Assembly (NCBI GenBank): GCA_017533785.1
Contig: JAFWII010000002.1
Location: 1 to 64,000, forward strand
Length of the DNA stretch: 64,000 nucleotides
Origin: Erysipelotrichaceae bacterium
Lineage (GTDB): Bacteria > Bacillota_I > Bacilli_A > Erysipelotrichales > Erysipelotrichaceae
Reading direction: 5' to 3'
Shown here: in pieces, positions 1,593 to 61,104 of the stretch
Position numbering within the stretch: the stretch's first letter is position 1
How the letters are laid out: every line of letters begins with the position of its first letter
Notes under the pieces: model-generated
The model's database searches: none
Told to the model about the DNA's origin: nothing
The model's input: the letters and a program-made list of their open reading frames with translations, nothing else
Program-made: the position numbers and the translations under genes

Positions 1593-2239
1593 TTCGTGTT
1601 TCCTCCTCCGGTCAGGCGGTAGTGACCGGTAATATCCTCCCGGTACGGGAGGATATCCTCTTCGAAGCTAAGCTGCAGATGTCCGGCATGATGCAGGACA
1701 TAGGGTATGCCGTTGCGGTCGCGGCGGTCGGACAGGATGCCGATATGACCGCGGAAGGTCACGATATCTCCTGCCTGCCAGGCTTCGATCTCTTTCAGGT
1801 CAGTCGTCAGCGACTGCCAGTTATGTTCAAAATAGACTTTCAGGTTGCGCACCCGACGGAAATCGATATTCGCGTCGACGACATCGATCGCATAGTCTTC
1901 CCGGTGCGCGAGCACATCCTCATAAACGAGCTGCTTCAGGTCATAGCCGCTGTCCAGCAGGGCGAACGCGACGACGTCGGTGCAGACGCCGTACTGATCG
2001 TCCGGATATCCTGTCTCGTAGTATTTGCTTTTATAGACCGGATCGGTCGCGAGATAGGCTTTTGCGCTCTGCAGGATGTCCAGCTGGTCATCGACCCCGT
2101 CTCCGTCTTCGTCGTGACCGCTGATAAAAGCCGTGATCCCGAAATCCGCGTCACTGTAATACGGCTGCGGAAACAGCCGGAAATGCCATATCAAAAATCC
2201 TGCCGCCAGGAAAAGCAGCAGCAGGAACAGCTTCTTCAT
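1589..2239 (-). CDS. DUF1287 family exported protein, NlpC/P60-like
   Basis: 216 residues. Residues 1-20 are a hydrophobic signal anchor (MKKLFLLLLFLAAGFLIW), so the protein is membrane-anchored or secreted. The rest matches DUF1287: VCTDVV (Cys86), DANIDFRRVRNL near 122-133, GDIVTFRGHIGILSD with His165, and VLHHAG near 183. Cys86 and His165 are placed as in papain-like NlpC/P60 peptidases, so a cell-wall peptidase or amidase role is plausible but not proved. A calcium-loop-like stretch DEDGDGVDD occurs at 43-51. It overlaps its neighbours by one and four bases. Confidence 0.8.
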   Translation of the reverse strand: MKKLFLLLLFLAAGFLIWHFRLFPQPYYSDADFGITAFISGHDEDGDGVDDQLDILQSAKAYLATDPVYKSKYYETGYPDDQYGVCTDVVAFALLDSGYDLKQLVYEDVLAHREDYAIDVVDANIDFRRVRNLKVYFEHNWQSLTTDLKEIEAWQAGDIVTFRGHIGILSDRRDRNGIPYVLHHAGHLQLSFEEDILPYREDITGHYRLTGGGNTK

Positions 2240-2766
2240 CAGTTCGTTGCAGAGGCGCCGATCACGGCAAAACGGCCGGTAAGCTTATCGTGAATGCTCC
2301 AGAGACCATAGCCCCACCATTCTTTTCCTTCATCGAAATAATCGGTAAAGTCGCCATCCCAGGAGAGGATGTCGAGATCCCGGTTCGGGAAAAGCAGATA
2401 ATTCACCTTATAGAAGTCGCCGACGCTGTAGCACTGTCCGTGCGGCGGCTGCAGAAAGGCGAAGGCATAGGTCAGTTTCTCCGGCGCGTTGATGAAGACC
2501 TTCCCGTCTTCAATGACCGCGAAGGCATCTGCCGGGGCAAAGAAGAAGTATTCCGGATCGACAGCTTCGCCGGTCATCTTTGATTCATCAAAACGATAAT
2601 CGCGGCCTTTGCGCTTCGAGAGGATGCTCAGGGCGTGTTTTACGGCTTCCTTATGCGACTGTTCGGCTTTATATTCATCGGCGTTTTCCAGAAGAACGTA
2701 ATCCACGACGAGGTCAGGATAAGTTTGTTTCAGTAACTCATTGTACTTCGGATCGATTTCTTTCAT
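2239..2766 (-). CDS. Unknown protein, first gene of the operon
   Basis: 175 residues, acidic and aromatic-rich, with no signal peptide or membrane segment. I do not recognise a family. The C-terminal half is rich in Trp, Phe, Tyr and Asp (for example GKEWWGYGLWSIHDK), suggesting a compact beta-rich globular domain. Its stop overlaps the start of the DUF1287 gene by one base. The start has no Shine-Dalgarno: a TAAGAT -10 box lies exactly six bases before the ATG, so the mRNA may be leaderless. The coding call rests on frame length, operon packing and codon use like its neighbours. Confidence 0.65.
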   Translation of the reverse strand: MKEIDPKYNELLKQTYPDLVVDYVLLENADEYKAEQSHKEAVKHALSILSKRKGRDYRFDESKMTGEAVDPEYFFFAPADAFAVIEDGKVFINAPEKLTYAFAFLQPPHGQCYSVGDFYKVNYLLFPNRDLDILSWDGDFTDYFDEGKEWWGYGLWSIHDKLTGRFAVIGASATN

Positions 2767-2778
2767 GGTTCTATCTTA
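2764..2778 (-). promoter_or_regulatory. -10 box six bases before ATG, possible leaderless start
   Basis: On the minus strand GTGGTAAGAT-agaacc-ATG: an extended -10 (TGG then TAAGAT, 2773-2778), six bases, then the start codon. Transcription would begin at or next to the A of ATG. No Shine-Dalgarno precedes the start. Confidence 0.5.
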
Positions 2779-2856: not shown

Positions 2857-3782
2857 TGTCCGCTCCAGCGGGCAAACTCTTCGTCTGTCGCCAGAACTCT
2901 GTGTGTTTCTGTCAGGACGTGCTCATGTCCGGCTGTGTAGTCCACGCCTTCCTCGTCCTTGTTGTAGGTGATCGCCTTGCGCTGTTTCTCCACGATCGGA
3001 TTCGGATGCGGGATCGCAGACAGCAGGGATTTCGTATAAGGATGGATCGGATTGGCGAAGATCTCATCGGTCGTCCCGGTCTCGACGATATGGCCGAGAT
3101 GCATGACGCCGATACGGTCGGAAATATACTTGACCATGGAAAGGTCATGGGCGATGAACAGATAGGTCGTGCCCATCTCGTCCTGGATATCCTTCATCAG
3201 GTTGACGACCTGCGCCTGGATCGAAACGTCCAGTGCCGAGATGCATTCGTCAGCGATGACGAGCTTCGGGTTCATGACCAGCGCGCGGGCGATGCCGACA
3301 CGCTGACGCTGACCGCCGGAAAACTGATGCGGGAAACGTGTTGCCTGTTCGCGGGAAAGACCGACTTTGTCCAGAACGTCGTTGACTTTCTGATCGATCT
3401 CTTCCTGCGACTTGCAGAGACCGTGGATCTCCAGACCTTCCGCAATGATCTGCTTGACCTTTTTACGGGGATTCAGACAGGCCATCGGATCCTGGAAGAT
3501 CATCGCCATATTCGTGCGCAGATATCTTTCGTCTTCCTTGGAAAGCTTTCCGGAGATATCGTGACCGTCGAAAATGATCTTGCCGCCGGTCGGTTCGTAA
3601 AGACGGATGATCGAGCGTCCGGTCGTGGATTTGCCCGAACCGGACTCGCCGACGAGACCGTAAGTCTCGCCTTCATAGATCTCGAAGCTGATGCCGTCAA
3701 CAGCTTTCGTGACCTTTTTGCGGCCAACCGGGAAGTACTGTTTCAGACCTTCGACTTTCAGCAGCAGTTTCTTCTCACTCAT
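2847..3782 (-). CDS. oppF: Oligopeptide ABC transporter ATP-binding protein OppF
   Basis: 311-residue ABC ATPase. Walker A GESGSGKST at 45-53, Q-loop MIFQDP at 94-99, signature FSGGQ at 154-158, Walker B LVIADE at 174-179, and a C-terminal oligopeptide/dipeptide extension (NPIHPYTKSLLSAIPHPNP). It pairs with OppD on the cytoplasmic face to power peptide uptake. It overlaps oppD by eight bases and is the last gene of oppA-B-C-D-F. The usual four-Cys motif seen in many OppF-type C-termini is not present. The stop codon is inside the operon's terminator hairpin. Confidence 0.93.
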   Translation of the reverse strand: MSEKKLLLKVEGLKQYFPVGRKKVTKAVDGISFEIYEGETYGLVGESGSGKSTTGRSIIRLYEPTGGKIIFDGHDISGKLSKEDERYLRTNMAMIFQDPMACLNPRKKVKQIIAEGLEIHGLCKSQEEIDQKVNDVLDKVGLSREQATRFPHQFSGGQRQRVGIARALVMNPKLVIADECISALDVSIQAQVVNLMKDIQDEMGTTYLFIAHDLSMVKYISDRIGVMHLGHIVETGTTDEIFANPIHPYTKSLLSAIPHPNPIVEKQRKAITYNKDEEGVDYTAGHEHVLTETHRVLATDEEFARWSGQAA

Positions 3783-9609: not shown

Positions 9610-11013
9610 TTATTGCGTCTCCGGGATCCTGAACCAGAAGCGGGAATACTCGCCATAGACAGAATCCACTCCGTATTCAAGGCCATGCAGTTCGAGCAGA
9701 TCACGCGCCAGCGACAGGCCGATGCCGCTGCCGATGTGATGGCGTTTGTGATCCTCCTCGACTTTATAATAACGGTTCCAGATATTTTTCAGATCTTTTT
9801 CTTTGATCCCCGGGCCGTTATCATAAACGGAAACGGTGTACATCTTCCCTTCCTTCTCAGAGGAAAGACGGATGATCTTGTTTTCCGCGTCATTGTAGTT
9901 CAAAGCATTATTAAGAAAATTATACAATACCTGGCTGATCCGTTTCCGATCAAAAGACACGATGCCGTCTTCTGCCAGTTCCAGTTTGAAATCGATCTCC
10001 TGCGCTTCGCAGTACTTTTCATACTGGCGGTAGATATCCGTCAGGAATTCATTCAAAGACACGTCTTCTTTCTGCAGTACCAGCCGGTTCCCTTCGATCC
10101 TGGAAACATCCAGCAGGTCATCGACCAGAGAGTTCAGCCGTTTCGCCTCGGTAATGATCACATCGAGGTTCTCCTCGTTGTTTTCCTCTTTCAGATCCTT
10201 CATCATTTCCGCATAGCCGACGATCATCGTCAGCGGTGTACGCAGGTCATGAGAAACATTGGACAGCAGTTCCTTGCGGGCAGTATCGACTTTGCGGATT
10301 TCCTCGTTTGCCTGCTTCAGCGTCTCGTTGAGTTCCATGATCTCCGTAGAGCTGCTGCTCACGTCGCCGCTGTAATTCCCGGAAGGCAGCCGGGAGGCCT
10401 CTTCCTGCAGTTTCCGGATCGGCGAAACGAAACGATAAGAGGAGATAAAGCCGAGCAGAACGGTAATGACAAGAACGATCAGGGCAATGACCCAAAGCTG
10501 GTCATGCAGAGTCGCGATCGTCGCTCCGAGCGGTGTGATCATTGCCGATACCAGCACGAAGGAAGTCTCTTCATCGTCTTCAACCATTCTGGAGTAGATG
10601 TAGAGCTTCTCCTGGTCTCCGCGGCCGATGCGGTAATCCTTAAAAACGTAGGATCCGCCGTTTTCCACGGTCGTTTTCAGGATCTCGGTCGTCTGGTCAT
10701 ACCGCAGCATTCCCAGAGCACACATATTCTGGTTTCCGGCGGTGGCGATGTCTTCATCCGTAGAGAAGACATAAACACAGACCTCGTTATTCATGGAACG
10801 TTCACGGATCCGCCTCTCGAGGTCGTCATCATCGTCGGCAGCTATGCTTTCAGCGATGTAATCCCCCGTCTCGATGATCTCCGTCAGTTTGTGTTTCTGA
10901 TAAAAGTCATCCAGGTAGAACGTCTGAAAAGCATAGATCAGACCGACGATCAGAAATGCCGAAAGGCTCAGGATCAGGATCATCTGGGTGCGGAAACTAA
11001 ATGTCTTTTTCAA
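9610..11013 (-). CDS. Two-component sensor histidine kinase
   Basis: 467 residues, membrane-bound. Spans at about 12-30 and 173-192 enclose an extracellular sensor of some 140 residues with an acidic cluster (AADDDDDLE) near 58-66. HAMP-like region about 193-245. The HisKA box SHDLRTP contains the phospho-accepting His255. ATPase motifs: N box NFLNNALNY, G1 DNGPGIKEKD, G2 GSGIGLSLARDL. The nearest known types are EnvZ/PhoR-like kinases. It overlaps its response regulator by 17 bases and precedes the DUF1028 gene. The stimulus is unknown. Confidence 0.92.
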   Translation of the reverse strand: MKKTFSFRTQMILILSLSAFLIVGLIYAFQTFYLDDFYQKHKLTEIIETGDYIAESIAADDDDDLERRIRERSMNNEVCVYVFSTDEDIATAGNQNMCALGMLRYDQTTEILKTTVENGGSYVFKDYRIGRGDQEKLYIYSRMVEDDEETSFVLVSAMITPLGATIATLHDQLWVIALIVLVITVLLGFISSYRFVSPIRKLQEEASRLPSGNYSGDVSSSSTEIMELNETLKQANEEIRKVDTARKELLSNVSHDLRTPLTMIVGYAEMMKDLKEENNEENLDVIITEAKRLNSLVDDLLDVSRIEGNRLVLQKEDVSLNEFLTDIYRQYEKYCEAQEIDFKLELAEDGIVSFDRKRISQVLYNFLNNALNYNDAENKIIRLSSEKEGKMYTVSVYDNGPGIKEKDLKNIWNRYYKVEEDHKRHHIGSGIGLSLARDLLELHGLEYGVDSVYGEYSRFWFRIPETQ

Positions 11014-11662
11014 AACGGTACCCCACGCCCCGCAGTGTCGTTATATATTTTGCGTAATCGCCAAGCGCCTTGCGCAGCAGTTTGATATGCGTATCCAGTG
11101 TCCGGTCATCACTGTAATAGTCATAGTCCCAAACTTTCGAGAGGATGTCTTCCCGGCGCAGCGCGATCCCGCGGTTCTTGACGAGATACAAAAGAAGCTC
11201 GTATTCCTTCAGGGAAAGGCTCAGCGGTTTTCCGTCGATGGTAACGACGCGCGCCTGCTCGTCGATGACGAGTGTGCCAATCACGATCTTTTCCGTAACG
11301 TTTTCGCGGCGTTTGAGGATGACCTTGATCCGCATCATCAGCTCCTTGGGTGAGAACGGTTTGGTCACATAGTCATCCGCGCCGACATCGAAACCGTAGA
11401 TGCGGTCTTCCTCCTGACTCAACGCAGAAAGGAAAATGCAGGGGACGTCGCGGAATTCGCAGATCCTCTGGTAAGCTTTGTAGCCGTCGATGCCCGGCAT
11501 CATGATGTCCATGATGATCACGTCGAAATCATTTCTCCGGCACAGTTCGATCGCTTCAAGCCCGTCCTTCGCGGTCATCGCCTCATAGCCTTCGTGGAGC
11601 GCGTATTTCAGGATCATCTCACGGATCTTTTCTTCATCGTCAACGATCAGTATTTTACTCAT
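10997..11662 (-). CDS. OmpR/PhoB-family response regulator
   Basis: 221 residues. Receiver domain 1-120 with acidic pocket DDEE (8-11), phospho-acceptor Asp52 in IIMDIMMPGIDG, and switch Lys in DYVTKPFSPKEL. A winged-helix DNA-binding domain follows (RREDILSKVWDYDYYSDDRTLDTHI...GVGYRFE). It is the partner of the overlapping kinase. Its start has no Shine-Dalgarno; TATAAT lies exactly six bases before the ATG, so a leaderless mRNA is likely. Confidence 0.93.
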   Translation of the reverse strand: MSKILIVDDEEKIREMILKYALHEGYEAMTAKDGLEAIELCRRNDFDVIIMDIMMPGIDGYKAYQRICEFRDVPCIFLSALSQEEDRIYGFDVGADDYVTKPFSPKELMMRIKVILKRRENVTEKIVIGTLVIDEQARVVTIDGKPLSLSLKEYELLLYLVKNRGIALRREDILSKVWDYDYYSDDRTLDTHIKLLRKALGDYAKYITTLRGVGYRFEKDI

Positions 11663-11674
11663 GGTTTTATTATA
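11660..11674 (-). promoter_or_regulatory. -10 box six bases before ATG, possible leaderless start
   Basis: On the minus strand a consensus TATAAT (11669-11674), then aaaacc, then the ATG of the response regulator gene. No Shine-Dalgarno. The predicted transcript start coincides with the start codon. Confidence 0.6.
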
Positions 11675-12838: not shown

Positions 12839-13465
12839 CTAGTCAAACAGTGACTGATTTTCTTCATCGTATTTGGGCAGATCCGGCAGTTCCTCGAGGC
12901 TGACGAGCTCAAAGCTGTCCATGAATTCCTCGGTCACTTCATACAGGATCGGCCTGCCCGGCGCTTCGCTGCGGCCGGCTTCGCGGATCAGATTGCGGGT
13001 CAGAAGTTTTCTTAACATGACCTCACAGCCGACGCCACGCAGTTCCTCGATCTCGATCCGGGTGATCGGCTGCTTGTAGGCAATGATCGCCAGAGTCTCA
13101 AGCGCGCTCGGGGAAAGCGTATCCGGCTTGTAGTTGTGGAAGAGCTTCTGGGCATAGGGATAGATATCGGCTTTGGAGACGAACTTGTAGCGTCCGCCGT
13201 AGTTGACGAGTTCGATCCCGTAGGCTTCGTCATCGTATTTGACGCGGATCTCATGCAGAAGCGCGAGCGCTTCGTCTTCTCCGACTTCAAGCACCGCAGC
13301 CAGCTGTTCTTCCTTGAGACCGTCCTCACCGACGATGTACAGCAGTCCCTCGGTAACGGCCTGTTTATTGACTGTCCGGATCTGTTCGACCGGCCGGACC
13401 CGGCTGTTATTCAGTGCGCACCGCTGTTCAGCGCTCAGCTCGCGCACGATCACTTCTTCACGCAT
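12839..13465 (-). CDS. scpB: Segregation and condensation protein ScpB
   Basis: 208 residues, two winged-helix domains typical of ScpB. Seen: AVTEGLLYIVGEDGLKEEQLA near 36-56, the family core LSPSALETLAIIAYKQPITRIEIEELRGV near 118-146, and GRPILYEVTEEF near 170. With ScpA it loads onto SMC for chromosome organisation. The start at 13465 gives an N-terminal extension of about 35 residues compared with common ScpB, but AAGGAG six bases before this ATG supports it. It overlaps scpA by eight bases. Confidence 0.93.
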   Translation of the reverse strand: MREEVIVRELSAEQRCALNNSRVRPVEQIRTVNKQAVTEGLLYIVGEDGLKEEQLAAVLEVGEDEALALLHEIRVKYDDEAYGIELVNYGGRYKFVSKADIYPYAQKLFHNYKPDTLSPSALETLAIIAYKQPITRIEIEELRGVGCEVMLRKLLTRNLIREAGRSEAPGRPILYEVTEEFMDSFELVSLEELPDLPKYDEENQSLFD

Positions 13466-14177
13466 AGTTCACTCCTTTTTGCAGGTGGATGGTGTCGCTC
13501 TCGTCTACTGAAAAGACAAGATAATGGTCTTTGATCAGGTCAAGGACCGCCAGCAGCGAGACGACACATTCAAAGAGATCCTCACAGTCATCGATCACCG
13601 TATCGAAAGTGAAGCTCTCCGGCAGGCTCTCGAGTCTCGAGAGGATCTGCAGACGGCGGTCTTCCAGGGTCAGCTCGCGCTTGGTCAGACTGGTCTCCAT
13701 CGGTCTGGAAAGCTGCACCCGGCGCAGGACCTTCGACATCGCCTTCAAAAGATCATAGGCGTTGCCTCTGGTCGTTCCGGATTCCTCTTTCGGTTCCTCC
13801 AGGTCGCTCATCGGCTTGGCGAAATGATCCTGTCTTGAACGGTAATTCTCATACAGCGCCTGGGAAGCTTCCTTATAGCGCTGATATTCCAGAAGACGGC
13901 GGACAAGAACGTCCTTCGGGTCTTCTTCTTCCTCATTTTCCTCTGTCCTTTTCGGCAGCATCTTCCGGCTCTTGTATTCGATCAGAGTCGCCAGTTCCAC
14001 GAGATAATCGCTTTCGATCTCAAGATGATGCTCCTCCATCTGGCGCAGGTGCAGCAGATACTGATCAGCCAGCACCTCCATATCCAGATCCATGATATCG
14101 AGCTTGTGCTCGGAGATCAGGTGCAGCATCAGATCCAGCGGACCTTCGAATTGTTCGGTTTTTGCTTCAAAAGACAT
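13458..14177 (-). CDS. scpA: Segregation and condensation protein ScpA (kleisin)
   Basis: 239 residues. The N-terminal kleisin signature FEGPLDLMLHLISEHKLDIMDLDM at 10-33 and YLVELATLIEYKSRKMLP near 60-77 bind the SMC neck; an acidic linker (EENEEEEDPKD) follows; the C-terminal winged helix (FECVVSLLAVLDLIKDH) binds the SMC cap. It bridges the SMC dimer together with ScpB. The start lacks a Shine-Dalgarno: TATAAT lies exactly six bases before ATG. Confidence 0.93.
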   Translation of the reverse strand: MSFEAKTEQFEGPLDLMLHLISEHKLDIMDLDMEVLADQYLLHLRQMEEHHLEIESDYLVELATLIEYKSRKMLPKRTEENEEEEDPKDVLVRRLLEYQRYKEASQALYENYRSRQDHFAKPMSDLEEPKEESGTTRGNAYDLLKAMSKVLRRVQLSRPMETSLTKRELTLEDRRLQILSRLESLPESFTFDTVIDDCEDLFECVVSLLAVLDLIKDHYLVFSVDESDTIHLQKGVNYA

Positions 14178-14189
14178 AACAGTATTATA
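14175..14189 (-). promoter_or_regulatory. -10 box six bases before the scpA ATG, possible leaderless start
   Basis: On the minus strand TGCTATAAT (extended -10, hexamer at 14184-14189), then actgtt, then ATG. No Shine-Dalgarno. The transcript is predicted to begin on the start codon. Confidence 0.6.
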
Positions 14190-41945: not shown

Positions 41946-41960
41946 TATAATAGCGGTATG
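41946..41960 (+). promoter_or_regulatory. -10 box six bases before the ispG ATG, possible leaderless start
   Basis: Consensus TATAAT (41946-41951), agcggt, then ATG (41958). No Shine-Dalgarno can fit. The predicted transcript start is the A of ATG. Confidence 0.6.
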
Positions 41961-42995
41961 AATAAAAGAGAAGAAACCAGAGCCGTCCGGGTCGGAAACG
42001 TTGCCCTCGGCGGCCAGAACCGGGTCATCATCCAATCGATGACCAATACAAAGACTCACGACATCGAAGCGACCGTCGCCCAGATAGAACGTCTGGAAAA
42101 AGCCGGCTGCGAGATCGTCCGGGTCGCTGTCCTGCAGAAGGAGGATGCCTGCGCGATCGCCGATATCCGCAAGCGGATCCATATCCCGATCGTCGCCGAC
42201 ATCCACTTCAATCCGGATTTCGCCATCCTCGCCATCGATAACGGTGTCGATAAGATCCGCCTGAATCCGGGAAACATCGAGGATGAATCTAAGATCCGCA
42301 CCATCGTCGAGCTTGCCAAAAACCGCGGCGTGCCGATCCGCATCGGCATCAATGCCGGTTCCCTCAACAAGAAGTATGAGCATTCGACCGACGCGATGAT
42401 CGCCTCAGCCTATGACCATCTGCGCATCCTGGATGCTCTTGACTTCCATGATGTCGTTCTTTCCTTCAAATCCTCCGACGCCCTGGAGACGATCGAAGTC
42501 TACCGCAAGGCGGCTGCGACCTTCCCCTACCCGCTGCATCTCGGCGTGACCGAAGCCGGACCGCTGGTCGATTCCTCGATCAAATCCGCCTTCGCGCTGG
42601 GTACGCTGCTGAACGAAGGGATCGGCGACACGATCCGGATCTCGATCTCGGACGATCCGGTCAAGGAGATCGCTGTTGCCAAGAAGCTGCTGAAGACCGT
42701 CGGTCTGCGTAAAGATGTCCCGACCCTGATCTCCTGTCCGACCTGCGGACGCATCCAGTACGATATGCTGCCGATCGTCGCAGAGATCGAAGAATATCTC
42801 AGTACTGTAAATAAGGATATCAAGGTCGCGATCATGGGCTGCGCGGTCAACGGTCCCGGCGAAGCAAGCGCTGCCGATATCGGTGTAGCCGGAGGAAAAG
42901 ATTCCGCCGTGCTGTTTAAAAAGGGACAGGTCGTATCCCGTTTCGATCAGAGCGAGATCGTGCGTGTCCTTAAGGAAGAGATCGATAAATTCTAA
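41958..42995 (+). CDS. ispG: 4-hydroxy-3-methylbut-2-enyl diphosphate synthase IspG
   Basis: 345 residues. Substrate-binding start VRVGNVALGGQNRVIIQSMTNT near 10-31; the three 4Fe-4S Cys lie in SCPTCGR (two) and MGCAVNGPGEA (one). It acts in the non-mevalonate isoprenoid pathway, making HMBPP. Length is normal for the short bacterial form. I start at 41958 from homology to IspG N-termini; the frame is open further upstream across the promoter. The start has no Shine-Dalgarno. Confidence 0.95.
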   Translation: MNKREETRAVRVGNVALGGQNRVIIQSMTNTKTHDIEATVAQIERLEKAGCEIVRVAVLQKEDACAIADIRKRIHIPIVADIHFNPDFAILAIDNGVDKIRLNPGNIEDESKIRTIVELAKNRGVPIRIGINAGSLNKKYEHSTDAMIASAYDHLRILDALDFHDVVLSFKSSDALETIEVYRKAAATFPYPLHLGVTEAGPLVDSSIKSAFALGTLLNEGIGDTIRISISDDPVKEIAVAKKLLKTVGLRKDVPTLISCPTCGRIQYDMLPIVAEIEEYLSTVNKDIKVAIMGCAVNGPGEASAADIGVAGGKDSAVLFKKGQVVSRFDQSEIVRVLKEEIDKF

Positions 42996-47023: not shown

Positions 47024-47038
47024 TAAAATAGAAACATG
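47024..47038 (+). promoter_or_regulatory. -10 box six bases before ATG, possible leaderless start
   Basis: TAAAAT (47024-47029), agaaac, then ATG (47036). An overlapping TATAGT five bases upstream is an alternative that would give a five-base leader. No Shine-Dalgarno either way. Confidence 0.5.
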
Positions 47039-47965
47039 AACAACCGGACCCGCATTCTTTCCCTGCTGCAGCTTCTGCGCAGCCGCAGCGACGAGGAACA
47101 TCCCCTTTCGACCGAAGCGATCACCGAACTGCTCGAAAACGAGTACGGACTGGAGGATGTTTACCGCAAAACGATCAACCAGGACCTCAGGGAACTGTCT
47201 GAGATCTTTCCGGACTACCAGTTCACTTACCGCCATAAAGCCGGTTACAGCCTGAGCGAAGCGCCCTTCTCCCTGACCGAGATCAAGATCCTGCTCGATT
47301 CGCTGGATTCCCTGCAGACACTGGATGAGCGTTTTCTTAAGAAGCTTGCAGCCAAGCTCTATTCCTTTCTTTCGGTCTATGAAGCGGACACGCTGGAGGG
47401 ACTGCGCAGCGCCGGCGAACACGGCGCTTCCCATTTCATCTATCATTTCGAGACTCTGCTCAACGCGTATAAGCATTCCCACAGCGTGATCCTGAAACGC
47501 AGGGGAAAAGACGGCGAAGAAGAGATCCTGCCGATCTATTTCGACCGGGTTCGTAACCAGTATTATCTGCTCTACCGCTATCCGCAGAAAAAGAAGATCT
47601 ACCGTCTCCGTTTCGACAACATAGAGTCACTGTCTGAAACAGAGAACGAAGCCGATCTCACAGTCTCCGCAAAAGAGGTCCGCCGCTATATCGAGGAAGC
47701 TTCCGACGCCTACCACGGCGATCAGACGATGACTCTCACCCTGCAGCTGGTTTCCGGCAAGCCGAAACTGAAGCGCTGGCTGAAGGAAGATTTCCCGCAG
47801 ATCCGTTTCTATGACGATATCGCTGTGCTTTCCGCCGGCATCTCCAATCGCCTTTTTGCCCGTCTGCTGGCTTACGGCAGCGATATCAGAATAAAAGAGC
47901 CGCAGGAAGCGGCAGACGCGTTTCTCGGCTATCTGAAAGAGACGATCCGCAGCTACGAAGAATAA
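47036..47965 (+). CDS. WYL-type transcriptional regulator
   Basis: 309 residues. N-terminal winged helix (TRILSLLQLLRSRSDEEHPLSTEAITELL...RKTINQDLRELSE near 4-55) and a middle-to-C-terminal WYL-like domain (PIYFDRVRNQYYLLYRYPQKKKIYRLRFDNIESL near 165-200, where WYL appears as YYLLYRY with RxRFD as ligand-binding arginines). WYL regulators sense nucleotides or nucleic-acid products. The target is unknown. The start has no Shine-Dalgarno and sits six bases after a -10 box. It is monocistronic. Confidence 0.85.
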   Translation: MNNRTRILSLLQLLRSRSDEEHPLSTEAITELLENEYGLEDVYRKTINQDLRELSEIFPDYQFTYRHKAGYSLSEAPFSLTEIKILLDSLDSLQTLDERFLKKLAAKLYSFLSVYEADTLEGLRSAGEHGASHFIYHFETLLNAYKHSHSVILKRRGKDGEEEILPIYFDRVRNQYYLLYRYPQKKKIYRLRFDNIESLSETENEADLTVSAKEVRRYIEEASDAYHGDQTMTLTLQLVSGKPKLKRWLKEDFPQIRFYDDIAVLSAGISNRLFARLLAYGSDIRIKEPQEAADAFLGYLKETIRSYEE

Positions 47966-48020: not shown

Positions 48021-49223
48021 CTAATTGATGCCGTCGGCTTCCGATACGGTGATCAGCTGATAGCCCTGCTCAATGAAGTACGGGATCAGCTCTTTCATGG
48101 AATCGACCGTTTCCTGATAGATCTCATGGAAGAGAACGATCGTGTTGTCCTCATATTCCGCTTTGACTTTCTGGATGATCTCCGAGGAATTGCGGATCGC
48201 CCAGTCACGGGAGTCAATGTCCCAAAGGACCGGTTTCAGATTCACCGCATCATCCAGCGAATGGTTATAGGCGCCGTACGGCGGACGGTAGGTCTTCATC
48301 TCGTAGCCGAAGCCGTTCTTCAGGTCGTTGTACGGGATCATGATCTCTTCCCTGGCTTCCGCCGTGGAAAGCTTGGTCAGGTCCGCATGCGACTGGGTAT
48401 GGGAGCCGAATTCATTGCCGTAGCTGACCGACTCCTTTATCTGCTCGATATCCGGTTCATACAGACGGCTGCCGACGATATAGAAGGTCGCCCGCGCGTC
48501 GTAATGATTCAGCAGTTCCATCAGTTCGCGGGAGGTCTGCCGGCTCGGTCCGTCATCAAAGGTCAGGCACAGGTACTTCTGGTTCGGATCGAAGAACATC
48601 GGTTTCCGGTAAGCCGCTGCGGCGGTGCCGAAATCCTTGCCCAGCGAACTGGCGAGGAAAGCCAGCGGGATCTGCGCGTCCACGTCGAATTCCGGGAAGT
48701 AAACATCCAGGTCCGAACCGCGGATCTCACGGATCTCATATTCGAAATCGCTGCGGTCATAGAAGTGACGGTCGCGGACGACTTCGCTGCCGTTTTTCTT
48801 CAGCGTATAGATCAGATAGTCGCGGAGGACGGTCTTTCCGTTCTCATCCAGACTTTCCGGCAGGGTCAGATCGGTCTGATCGCCGTTGACGATATAGGAA
48901 GCGCCGGGATACTCGACCTGGTAGCATTCCCCGTAAGGGACCAGTGTATAGTCGAACACCGTCTTCTCTTCAACGCCTTCGCAGAGTTTCTTCGCCTGCT
49001 CCTTGCCCTTCTTGGAATTCTCCGGATAGAAGACCAGACACTTTCCGTACTGCGCTTTCGCCGCGCCCTCATTGGCGCTCTTGACGCCGATGAAACTCAG
49101 ACGATGTGTAAGCAACATAAACATAAACCAGATCACTCCAACAAAAAAGATCACGTACAGCGCATAGCGGATGCTCTTACGTAATCTTCTCTTTGGTTTT
49201 CTTCTTCTTTGTACTGTGCTCAT
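48021..49223 (-). CDS. Membrane-anchored polysaccharide deacetylase
   Basis: 400 residues. Basic N-terminus and one span (about 18-40) anchor it outside the cell. A middle domain of about 150 residues resembles the PgdA-type N-terminal region. The NodB deacetylase domain (about 205-395) keeps the catalytic Asp-Asp in TFDDGPS, metal ligands His/His in GSHTQSHADL, RPPYGAYN, and the final LFHE. It probably deacetylates peptidoglycan or a surface glycan. Start without Shine-Dalgarno; TAAAAT is exactly six bases upstream. Confidence 0.88.
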   Translation of the reverse strand: MSTVQRRRKPKRRLRKSIRYALYVIFFVGVIWFMFMLLTHRLSFIGVKSANEGAAKAQYGKCLVFYPENSKKGKEQAKKLCEGVEEKTVFDYTLVPYGECYQVEYPGASYIVNGDQTDLTLPESLDENGKTVLRDYLIYTLKKNGSEVVRDRHFYDRSDFEYEIREIRGSDLDVYFPEFDVDAQIPLAFLASSLGKDFGTAAAAYRKPMFFDPNQKYLCLTFDDGPSRQTSRELMELLNHYDARATFYIVGSRLYEPDIEQIKESVSYGNEFGSHTQSHADLTKLSTAEAREEIMIPYNDLKNGFGYEMKTYRPPYGAYNHSLDDAVNLKPVLWDIDSRDWAIRNSSEIIQKVKAEYEDNTIVLFHEIYQETVDSMKELIPYFIEQGYQLITVSEADGIN

Positions 49224-49235
49224 ATATCTATTTTA
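49221..49235 (-). promoter_or_regulatory. -10 box six bases before ATG, possible leaderless start
   Basis: On the minus strand TGCTAAAAT (extended -10, hexamer at 49230-49235), agatat, then ATG. No Shine-Dalgarno. Confidence 0.55.
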
Positions 49236-59895: not shown

Positions 59896-59910
59896 TATAA
59901 TAGAGGTATG
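59896..59910 (+). promoter_or_regulatory. -10 box six bases before ATG, possible leaderless start
   Basis: Consensus TATAAT (59896-59901), agaggt, then ATG (59908). AGAGGT abuts the ATG with no spacing, so it cannot act as a normal Shine-Dalgarno. The terminator just upstream shows that this is a new transcript. Confidence 0.6.
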
Positions 59911-61104
59911 ATCGAATTCCTGATCCGGACTTTCATCAAAGACCACGAAAACACCGCAGACAAGAATATCCGCCTGCGCTACGGCGTGCTCGCCGGCAGT
60001 GTGGGTATTTTTTGCAATCTCCTGCTTACCGCGATCAAGGTCACAGTCGGCCTTCTGACAGGAGCGATCTCGATCATCGCCGACGCTGTCAACAACCTGT
60101 CCGACGCGCTCTCCTCGATCGTCACTCTGGTCGGTTTCCGTCTGTCGGGCAAACCAGCAGACGAGGATCATCCCTACGGTCACGGGAGGATCGAATACCT
60201 CAGCGGTTTTATCGTCGCGGCGGCGGTCATCGCAGTCGCGGTGAATCTCTTGAAGACATCCGTCGAGAATATCCTGAACGGCCGCGTTCCGGAAGTCAGC
60301 CGGACGACGGTCCTGATCCTGGTCATCGCGATCCTGTTCAAGATGTGGATGGCCCGCTTCTATTTCTACATCAGCAACAAGATTTCCTCGACTGCCATGA
60401 AGGCAACAGCCAAAGACTCGCTGACGGACTGCATCACGACTTCCGCATCCCTGATCTCCGTTCTGGTGCTGCTGTTCGCAAAGATCAACATCGACGGCTG
60501 GGCGGGCGCTCTGGTCTCCCTTTTCGTCATCTATTCCGGCTATACCGCTGCCAGGGATACGATCGATCTGCTGCTCGGGAAAGCGCCGGAACCGAAACGG
60601 ATCGAAGAGATCCGCCGCACCGCGCTGGAAAACCCGGAAGTCATCGGCATTCACGATCTCCGTGTCCATGAATACGGACCGGGAACGGTGATCGTTTCCC
60701 TCCATCTGGAGATGGATTATGATAAGACGCTGTCGGAAGCGCATGAGATCGTGCATCAGGTCGAGAACGCAATCCGCGGGAAGAAACTGGCGGAACAGGT
60801 CACGATCCACATCGATCCGGTAAGCTACGACGATCCGCAGCGGCGGCAGATCCTGAAGGAAGTCAGGGAAACACTGACCGGGATCGATCCGGTGATCTCC
60901 ATGCACGATCTGATGGTCGCTAGCGAAAACGGGCGCAGGAGGGTCTCTTTCGATGTCGTCGTGCCCTATGAGTATCCTCTCTCCGACGAAGAACTGTCCA
61001 CAAAGATCCGGAGCATGCTGAAAAAGCCGGATACGGACTACGAGATCGAAGTCGACCGCGGTGAATACCAGATCCTGAGCGGCTCAAAATTCCCGGAAAA
61101 ATGA
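59908..61104 (+). CDS. Cation diffusion facilitator (CDF) efflux protein
   Basis: 398 residues. Six membrane spans in the first 215 residues; metal site I is AISIIADAVNNLSDAL (Asp, Asn, Asp) near 53-68 with KDSLTDCITT as the second half; DEDHPYGHGRIEYLSG near 87-102 is the CDF hallmark. A long cytoplasmic C-terminus (about 180 residues) contains a first ferredoxin-like domain (IHDLRVHEYGPGTVIVSLHLEMD) and a further extension that could be a second one, longer than usual. Exports Zn, Mn, Fe or Co; metal unknown. Confidence 0.9.
   Translation: MIEFLIRTFIKDHENTADKNIRLRYGVLAGSVGIFCNLLLTAIKVTVGLLTGAISIIADAVNNLSDALSSIVTLVGFRLSGKPADEDHPYGHGRIEYLSGFIVAAAVIAVAVNLLKTSVENILNGRVPEVSRTTVLILVIAILFKMWMARFYFYISNKISSTAMKATAKDSLTDCITTSASLISVLVLLFAKINIDGWAGALVSLFVIYSGYTAARDTIDLLLGKAPEPKRIEEIRRTALENPEVIGIHDLRVHEYGPGTVIVSLHLEMDYDKTLSEAHEIVHQVENAIRGKKLAEQVTIHIDPVSYDDPQRRQILKEVRETLTGIDPVISMHDLMVASENGRRRVSFDVVVPYEYPLSDEELSTKIRSMLKKPDTDYEIEVDRGEYQILSGSKFPEK

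Follow-up and report, generated by a model that had tools for sequence, protein, structure and literature searches.

Based on the distance between -10 boxes and start codons, we propose that a bacterium of the Erysipelotrichaceae carries, beside its Shine-Dalgarno (SD)-led genes, a class of leaderless genes that is a trait of its lineage, and we put the probability of this reading at roughly 0.9. The window, that is, the whole stretch of 64,000 nucleotides analysed here (contig C41), belongs to a genome of 1.80 Mb in 46 contigs, 88% complete and with a GC content of ~52%, whose closest named IspG relatives are Erysipelotrichaceae MAGs, for the most part from rumen or gut. We envisage that promoters of the housekeeping sigma factor would present a -10 box six, sometimes seven, bases before an ATG (N6 and N7), that transcription would begin on the A of this ATG or one base earlier and yield an mRNA without a leader, and that the ribosome would start at the 5'-terminal AUG without SD pairing. 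The layout would be kept for particular genes, among them ispG, gmk and ispH, across related genera.

A preliminary description of the window had listed seven genes with a -10 hexamer exactly six bases before the ATG, and all seven hexamers are present with this spacing. At ispG (gcpE; plus strand, 41958..42995; NCBIfam TIGR00612, E 9e-119) the box is TATAAT (41946..41951), there is no SD and the expected transcript start is the A at 41958; residue 4 of IspG aligns to position 1 of the TIGR00612 model, and the ispG start is therefore right. On the minus strand TATAAT also precedes the gene of an OmpR/PhoB-type response regulator (box 11669..11674, gene 10997..11662; PhoB models with E 1e-59 to 1e-57, under the cut-off for an exact name) and, extended by TGC, scpA, which encodes segregation and condensation protein A (box 14184..14189, gene 13458..14177; NF000994, E 7e-52, model positions 3-244). 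The same hexamer is found on the plus strand at the gene of a CDF cation efflux protein (box 59896..59901, gene 59908..61104; TIGR01297, E 1e-69); a likely homologue with 36% identity in G045, a genome of another genus, shares the -10/N6/ATG layout. TAAAAT stands before a polysaccharide deacetylase gene (minus strand; box 49230..49235, extended by TGC; gene 48021..49223; Pfam PF01522) and before the gene of a 309-aa protein (plus strand; box 47024..47029, gene 47036..47965). The weakest of the seven is TAAGAT (minus strand, 2773..2778, extended by TGG), which has 4/6 consensus bases and precedes the gene of a 175-aa protein (2239..2766) without a Pfam or NCBIfam match. All seven genes are predicted to be leaderless. 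The names first given to scpA, ispG and the CDF, deacetylase and response regulator genes hold; 'WYL regulator' for the 309-aa protein is unconfirmed, no Pfam or NCBIfam match being found at E 1e-3. The three extended boxes, with TGN directly 5' of the hexamer, had been recognized correctly, as had the lack of a usable SD: none of the seven genes has an SD match of at least 5 nt at a usable distance, an absence that at an N6 ATG is in part unavoidable, as the -10 box fills the SD position. The contrasting, SD-led class is exemplified by htpG, which carries AAAGGAGG, and an SD of at least 5 nt precedes 181/323 genes without an N6/N7 box in our first sample, in agreement with the proposal that two start classes coexist. 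The 3' end of the 16S rRNA with its anti-SD, searched for with one pattern, was not found in the MAG.

How sharp is the preference for six bases? We combined whole-genome counts of the patterns TAWAAT-Nk-ATG and TATAAT-Nk-ATG with sampled stretches and simple gene calls. The window contains six copies of TAWAAT-N6-ATG, compared with a mean of 0.49 and a largest count of 3 in 100 dinucleotide shuffles, and the N5 and N7 versions are absent (0 each). The preliminary description had suggested a genome-wide scan with N5 and N7 as controls, and had conceded that N6 might prove no commoner than other spacings; the scan goes against this, giving 80 occurrences at N6 versus 24 at N5 and 40 at N7, with 10 for a backward-pattern control (N6 versus N5, binomial p 2e-8), and TATAAT gives 62 at N6 versus 15 at N10. 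In the first sample (436 kb, 377 simple gene calls, picked around known hits) exact TATAAT is found 36 times at N6, seven times at N7 and about twice at every other spacing. This N6 peak is seen only at ATGs that open ORFs of at least 80 codons; there is no comparable peak in the 436 kb at short-ORF ATGs, GTG or TTG. Gene-level counts reach 42 at N6 and 12 at N7 versus a mean of ~4 in this sample, and eight and nine versus a background of 3.2 in a second sample taken from other contigs, and the gene-level histogram displays no excess at N5 or N8. All percentages of genes hinge on the threshold of 5/6 consensus bases for a -10 box, and the gene caller is simple, with an approximate choice of starts. 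The share of 12% in the first sample is inflated, because the sample was picked around known hits, and the second sample yields 3.4%; the share was therefore computed from the whole-genome TAWAAT counts, with N5 as background and an estimated ~1,600 genes. The excess over N5 is then ~56 at N6 plus ~16 at N7, and the leaderless class would comprise about 5% of genes genome-wide. Extended TGN motifs accompany 15/50 N6 promoters versus 5.7% at random; the -35 boxes of N6 promoters are weak and differ little from those of leadered promoters. A restriction of leaderless starts to AUG, with no GTG/TTG excess at N6, was considered as a special feature and dropped, because GTG or TTG opens just 7/209 strong SD-led starts, so that about two would be expected at N6.

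In bacterial promoters position -1 is preferably a pyrimidine and position +1 a purine. T or C directly precedes the ATG at 71/80 N6 sites versus 11/24 N5 sites, at 52% of N7 genes and at about 60-63% of SD-led starts, and a pyrimidine holds this position at N6 genes of relatives as well (12/12 in G018, 23/26 in G045, 18/20 in G093). This signal is independent of the -10 motif that defines the N6 set, and fits a predicted +1 on the A of the ATG, as expected. Among 21 leadered TATAAT promoters the +1 base is a purine in 18 and the -1 base a pyrimidine in ten, from which we infer that additional selection for precision of the start may act on leaderless promoters. Are the ATGs themselves correctly assigned? 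Since the box takes up the place of an SD, a Fisher test of N6 box versus SD is in part circular; the N6/N7 genes were therefore set against genes whose boxes, at other spacings, are due to chance: an SD of at least 5 nt lies at any candidate start nearby in 2/71 N6/N7 genes, whereas an alternative SD-led start is available for 8/21 genes with chance boxes at N0-5 and 9/37 at N8-14. Moreover, family-model matches begin at the first residues in ispG, scpA, gmk, ispH, holA, rlmN, rimM and smpB. The same base-level evidence bears on the alternative of very short leaders, from a single base to a few, produced by variable start-site selection, which would be a shade of our explanation, not its opposite, and which we regard as unlikely although it deserves serious attention. 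Bacterial start-site choice shifts by a base or two, and N7 is itself above background (40 versus 24 at N5); N7 sites do not show the -1 pyrimidine, and may reflect a 1-nt leader or partly chance. Such short leaders fit poorly with the strong pyrimidine-purine step of N6 genes, which falls precisely on the A of the ATG, and with the lack of any excess at N5 and N8.

The conservation of the layout was followed most widely for ispG. We compared 80 ispG loci. Of the 45 closest relatives, 34 carry a -10 box six or seven bases before the ATG, with flanks that vary; 35 deeper relatives include no leaderless locus and are nearly all SD-led, and L088, which matches a loose leaderless rule but has an SD, is counted as SD-led. 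The leaderless loci all fall within one clade (100/99 support), and the seven changes that the ispG tree needs would be explained most simply by one gain and several losses of the layout. In L033, L064 and L068 (near base 3001) the end of the upstream gene and ispG overlap, and the -10/N6 box is missing; judged from these arrangements, ispG has shifted between a predicted leaderless promoter of its own and translational coupling within one clade. In L073 (bases 1555-1575) the upstream gene appears to stop at the TAA within the TATAAT of ispG. Both ispG (41958) and ispH (L020, 16165), which encode the last enzymes of the MEP pathway, are predicted to be leaderless in the window genome. Beyond ispG, orthologues or likely homologues in G018 or G045 keep the layout for an NFACT-type gene, gmk, priA, rlmN, ispH and the CDF gene, and some other orthologues in these genomes are SD-led. 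The smpB orthologue in G045 would be leaderless by the loose rule and was left uncounted, as AAGGAG lies upstream.

The gene neighbourhood allows a second alternative to be weighed, namely that the -10 boxes mark secondary promoters or ones internal to a transcript, and that the main transcripts come from further upstream and carry a leader that lacks an SD, with translation relying for instance on S1 or on a start region free of structure. The initial view that all seven window genes open their transcript is partly right: same-strand genes lie upstream of the deacetylase gene at 26 bp, the CDF gene at 75 bp, the 175-aa gene at ~80 bp and the response regulator gene at 309 bp, and some of the seven boxes may be internal promoters. 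In a wider set, a same-strand gene ends within 30 bp upstream of 9/54 N6/N7 genes, and the overlapping ispG loci that lack the box point in the same direction. As a general account, we consider internal promoters improbable, although individual genes may have a promoter further upstream and an SD-less leader. They leave unexplained the sharp N6 preference and a -1 pyrimidine seen at N6 only, and in 29/54 N6/N7 genes the upstream neighbour lies on the opposite strand. Divergent pairs, with 35-62 bp between the ATGs, argue against them too. In three genomes of two genera (G000 and G018 are of one genus), gmk and its divergent NFACT-type neighbour both show the -10/N6-or-N7/ATG layout, with 35, 53 and 45 bp from ATG to ATG in G000, G018 and G045; a gap of 35-53 bp is too short for two conventional promoters with leaders. 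Divergent pairs of predicted leaderless genes, in the range of 35-62 bp between starts, were observed in L018 (7905/7941), L016 (17784/17834), L023 (9918/9974) and L020 (3446/3509). The leaderless reading of the preliminary description is thus well supported at the level of sequence by the N6 spike, the -1 pyrimidine, the conservation at ispG and the divergent pairs.

How far does the pattern extend? In a survey of 60 genera of the family, each represented by a single genome, the ratio of N6 to N10 is at least 1.5 in ten and below 1 in 33, and passes the Bonferroni limit in three genera (g1, g16 and g45). In a sister family of the same order (f2) the ratio is 0.57-0.95, with one exception. Sampled stretches disclose a gene-level excess of 6.2% in G018, 7.7% in G045 and 7.8% in G093, and none in the control genome G316. 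AT-rich genomes of the same class, G316 included, hold many matches and often more at N10 than at N6, but the idea that TATAAT-like hexamers arise by chance in AT-rich upstream sequence, with no real class behind them, has next to no probability and is refuted for the window genome because of the spacing control, the shuffles and N6-to-N5 excess given above being joined by the lack of a signal at short ORFs and at GTG/TTG and by an ispG spacing that is conserved while the flanks vary. Elsewhere in the class, the strongest N6 excess of the survey is seen in G488 and G522 (family f5, genera g171 and g182; 140 versus 25 and 173 versus 38), whose genomes measure 0.8-0.9 Mb and are probably mycoplasma-like. 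In addition, G399 and others of family f8 (genus g131), with 60% GC, have 20 matches at N6 versus three at N10, and 6/66 genes of a sample from this genus carry the box at N6.

Leaderless classes have been described in several bacterial groups. In Streptococcus pyogenes, S. agalactiae and S. pneumoniae, 8.6-9% of mRNAs are leaderless by differential RNA-seq, and 81% of leaderless mRNAs are common to two streptococcal species (PMC6431027), whereas the share in enterococci is <1% (PMC7724050). Predictions by Zheng et al. in 2011 singled out the Lactobacillales and Mycoplasma as the leaderless-rich Firmicutes, with a share of 18% in Mycoplasma, and assigned over 20% of the genes in Actinobacteria and Deinococcus-Thermus to the leaderless class, with a weaker TANNNT box (PMC3160421). 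The window genome resembles the streptococci in belonging to the Gram-positive Bacilli, in having a minority class beside SD-led genes, and in the recurrence of predicted leaderless genes between species, which in streptococci are largely the same set. It differs from them in family, in its ~52% GC and in the approach, which is sequence-based here and differential RNA-seq in the streptococci. Like the TA-led genes of Zheng et al., its putative leaderless genes have a TAtaaT motif ~12 bp upstream of the start codon, and its extended boxes recall the upstream TG peak that some of their low-GC genomes show; unlike their clades, the Erysipelotrichaceae are absent from their Firmicute list (PMC3160421). 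The -10/N6/start geometry is shared with Actinobacteria and Deinococcus-Thermus, but the box is near-consensus TATAAT, in contrast to TANNNT. At ~5% of genes genome-wide, and 6-8% in the samples of G018, G045 and G093, the predicted share falls short of the Actinobacterial regime of >20%, and for the window genome also of the 18% of Mycoplasma. The preliminary description had held that such starts are unexpectedly frequent for the Bacillota, a view that we do not retain: a share of ~5% is in line with the 8.6-9% of streptococcal mRNAs, the Lactobacillales and Mycoplasma were already listed, and expectations for the Bacillota are therefore not overturned. No earlier report of leaderless genes in Erysipelotrichaceae or Erysipelothrix was found in the open-access literature. 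The class is of the same mode and of similar weight as known leaderless classes, in a newly added lineage, and is no surprise in principle.

What are the implications for the family? It is conceivable, though we think it quite doubtful, that a subclade of the Erysipelotrichaceae evolved its own conserved leaderless set, distinct from those of streptococci and mycoplasmas and consisting of ispG, ispH, gmk back to back with an NFACT/RqcH-type gene, smpB, priA, holA and rlmN, with which the cell may be able to switch these housekeeping genes in response to altered initiation factors or ribosomes. On our preferred reading, that of a leaderless class beside SD-led genes, a gut and rumen lineage of Firmicutes would be added to the bacteria with a real leaderless class. 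Gene callers tuned to the SD may put such starts in the wrong place. Within this one family, single genes such as ispG would be seen to move among leaderless, SD-led and translationally coupled starts.
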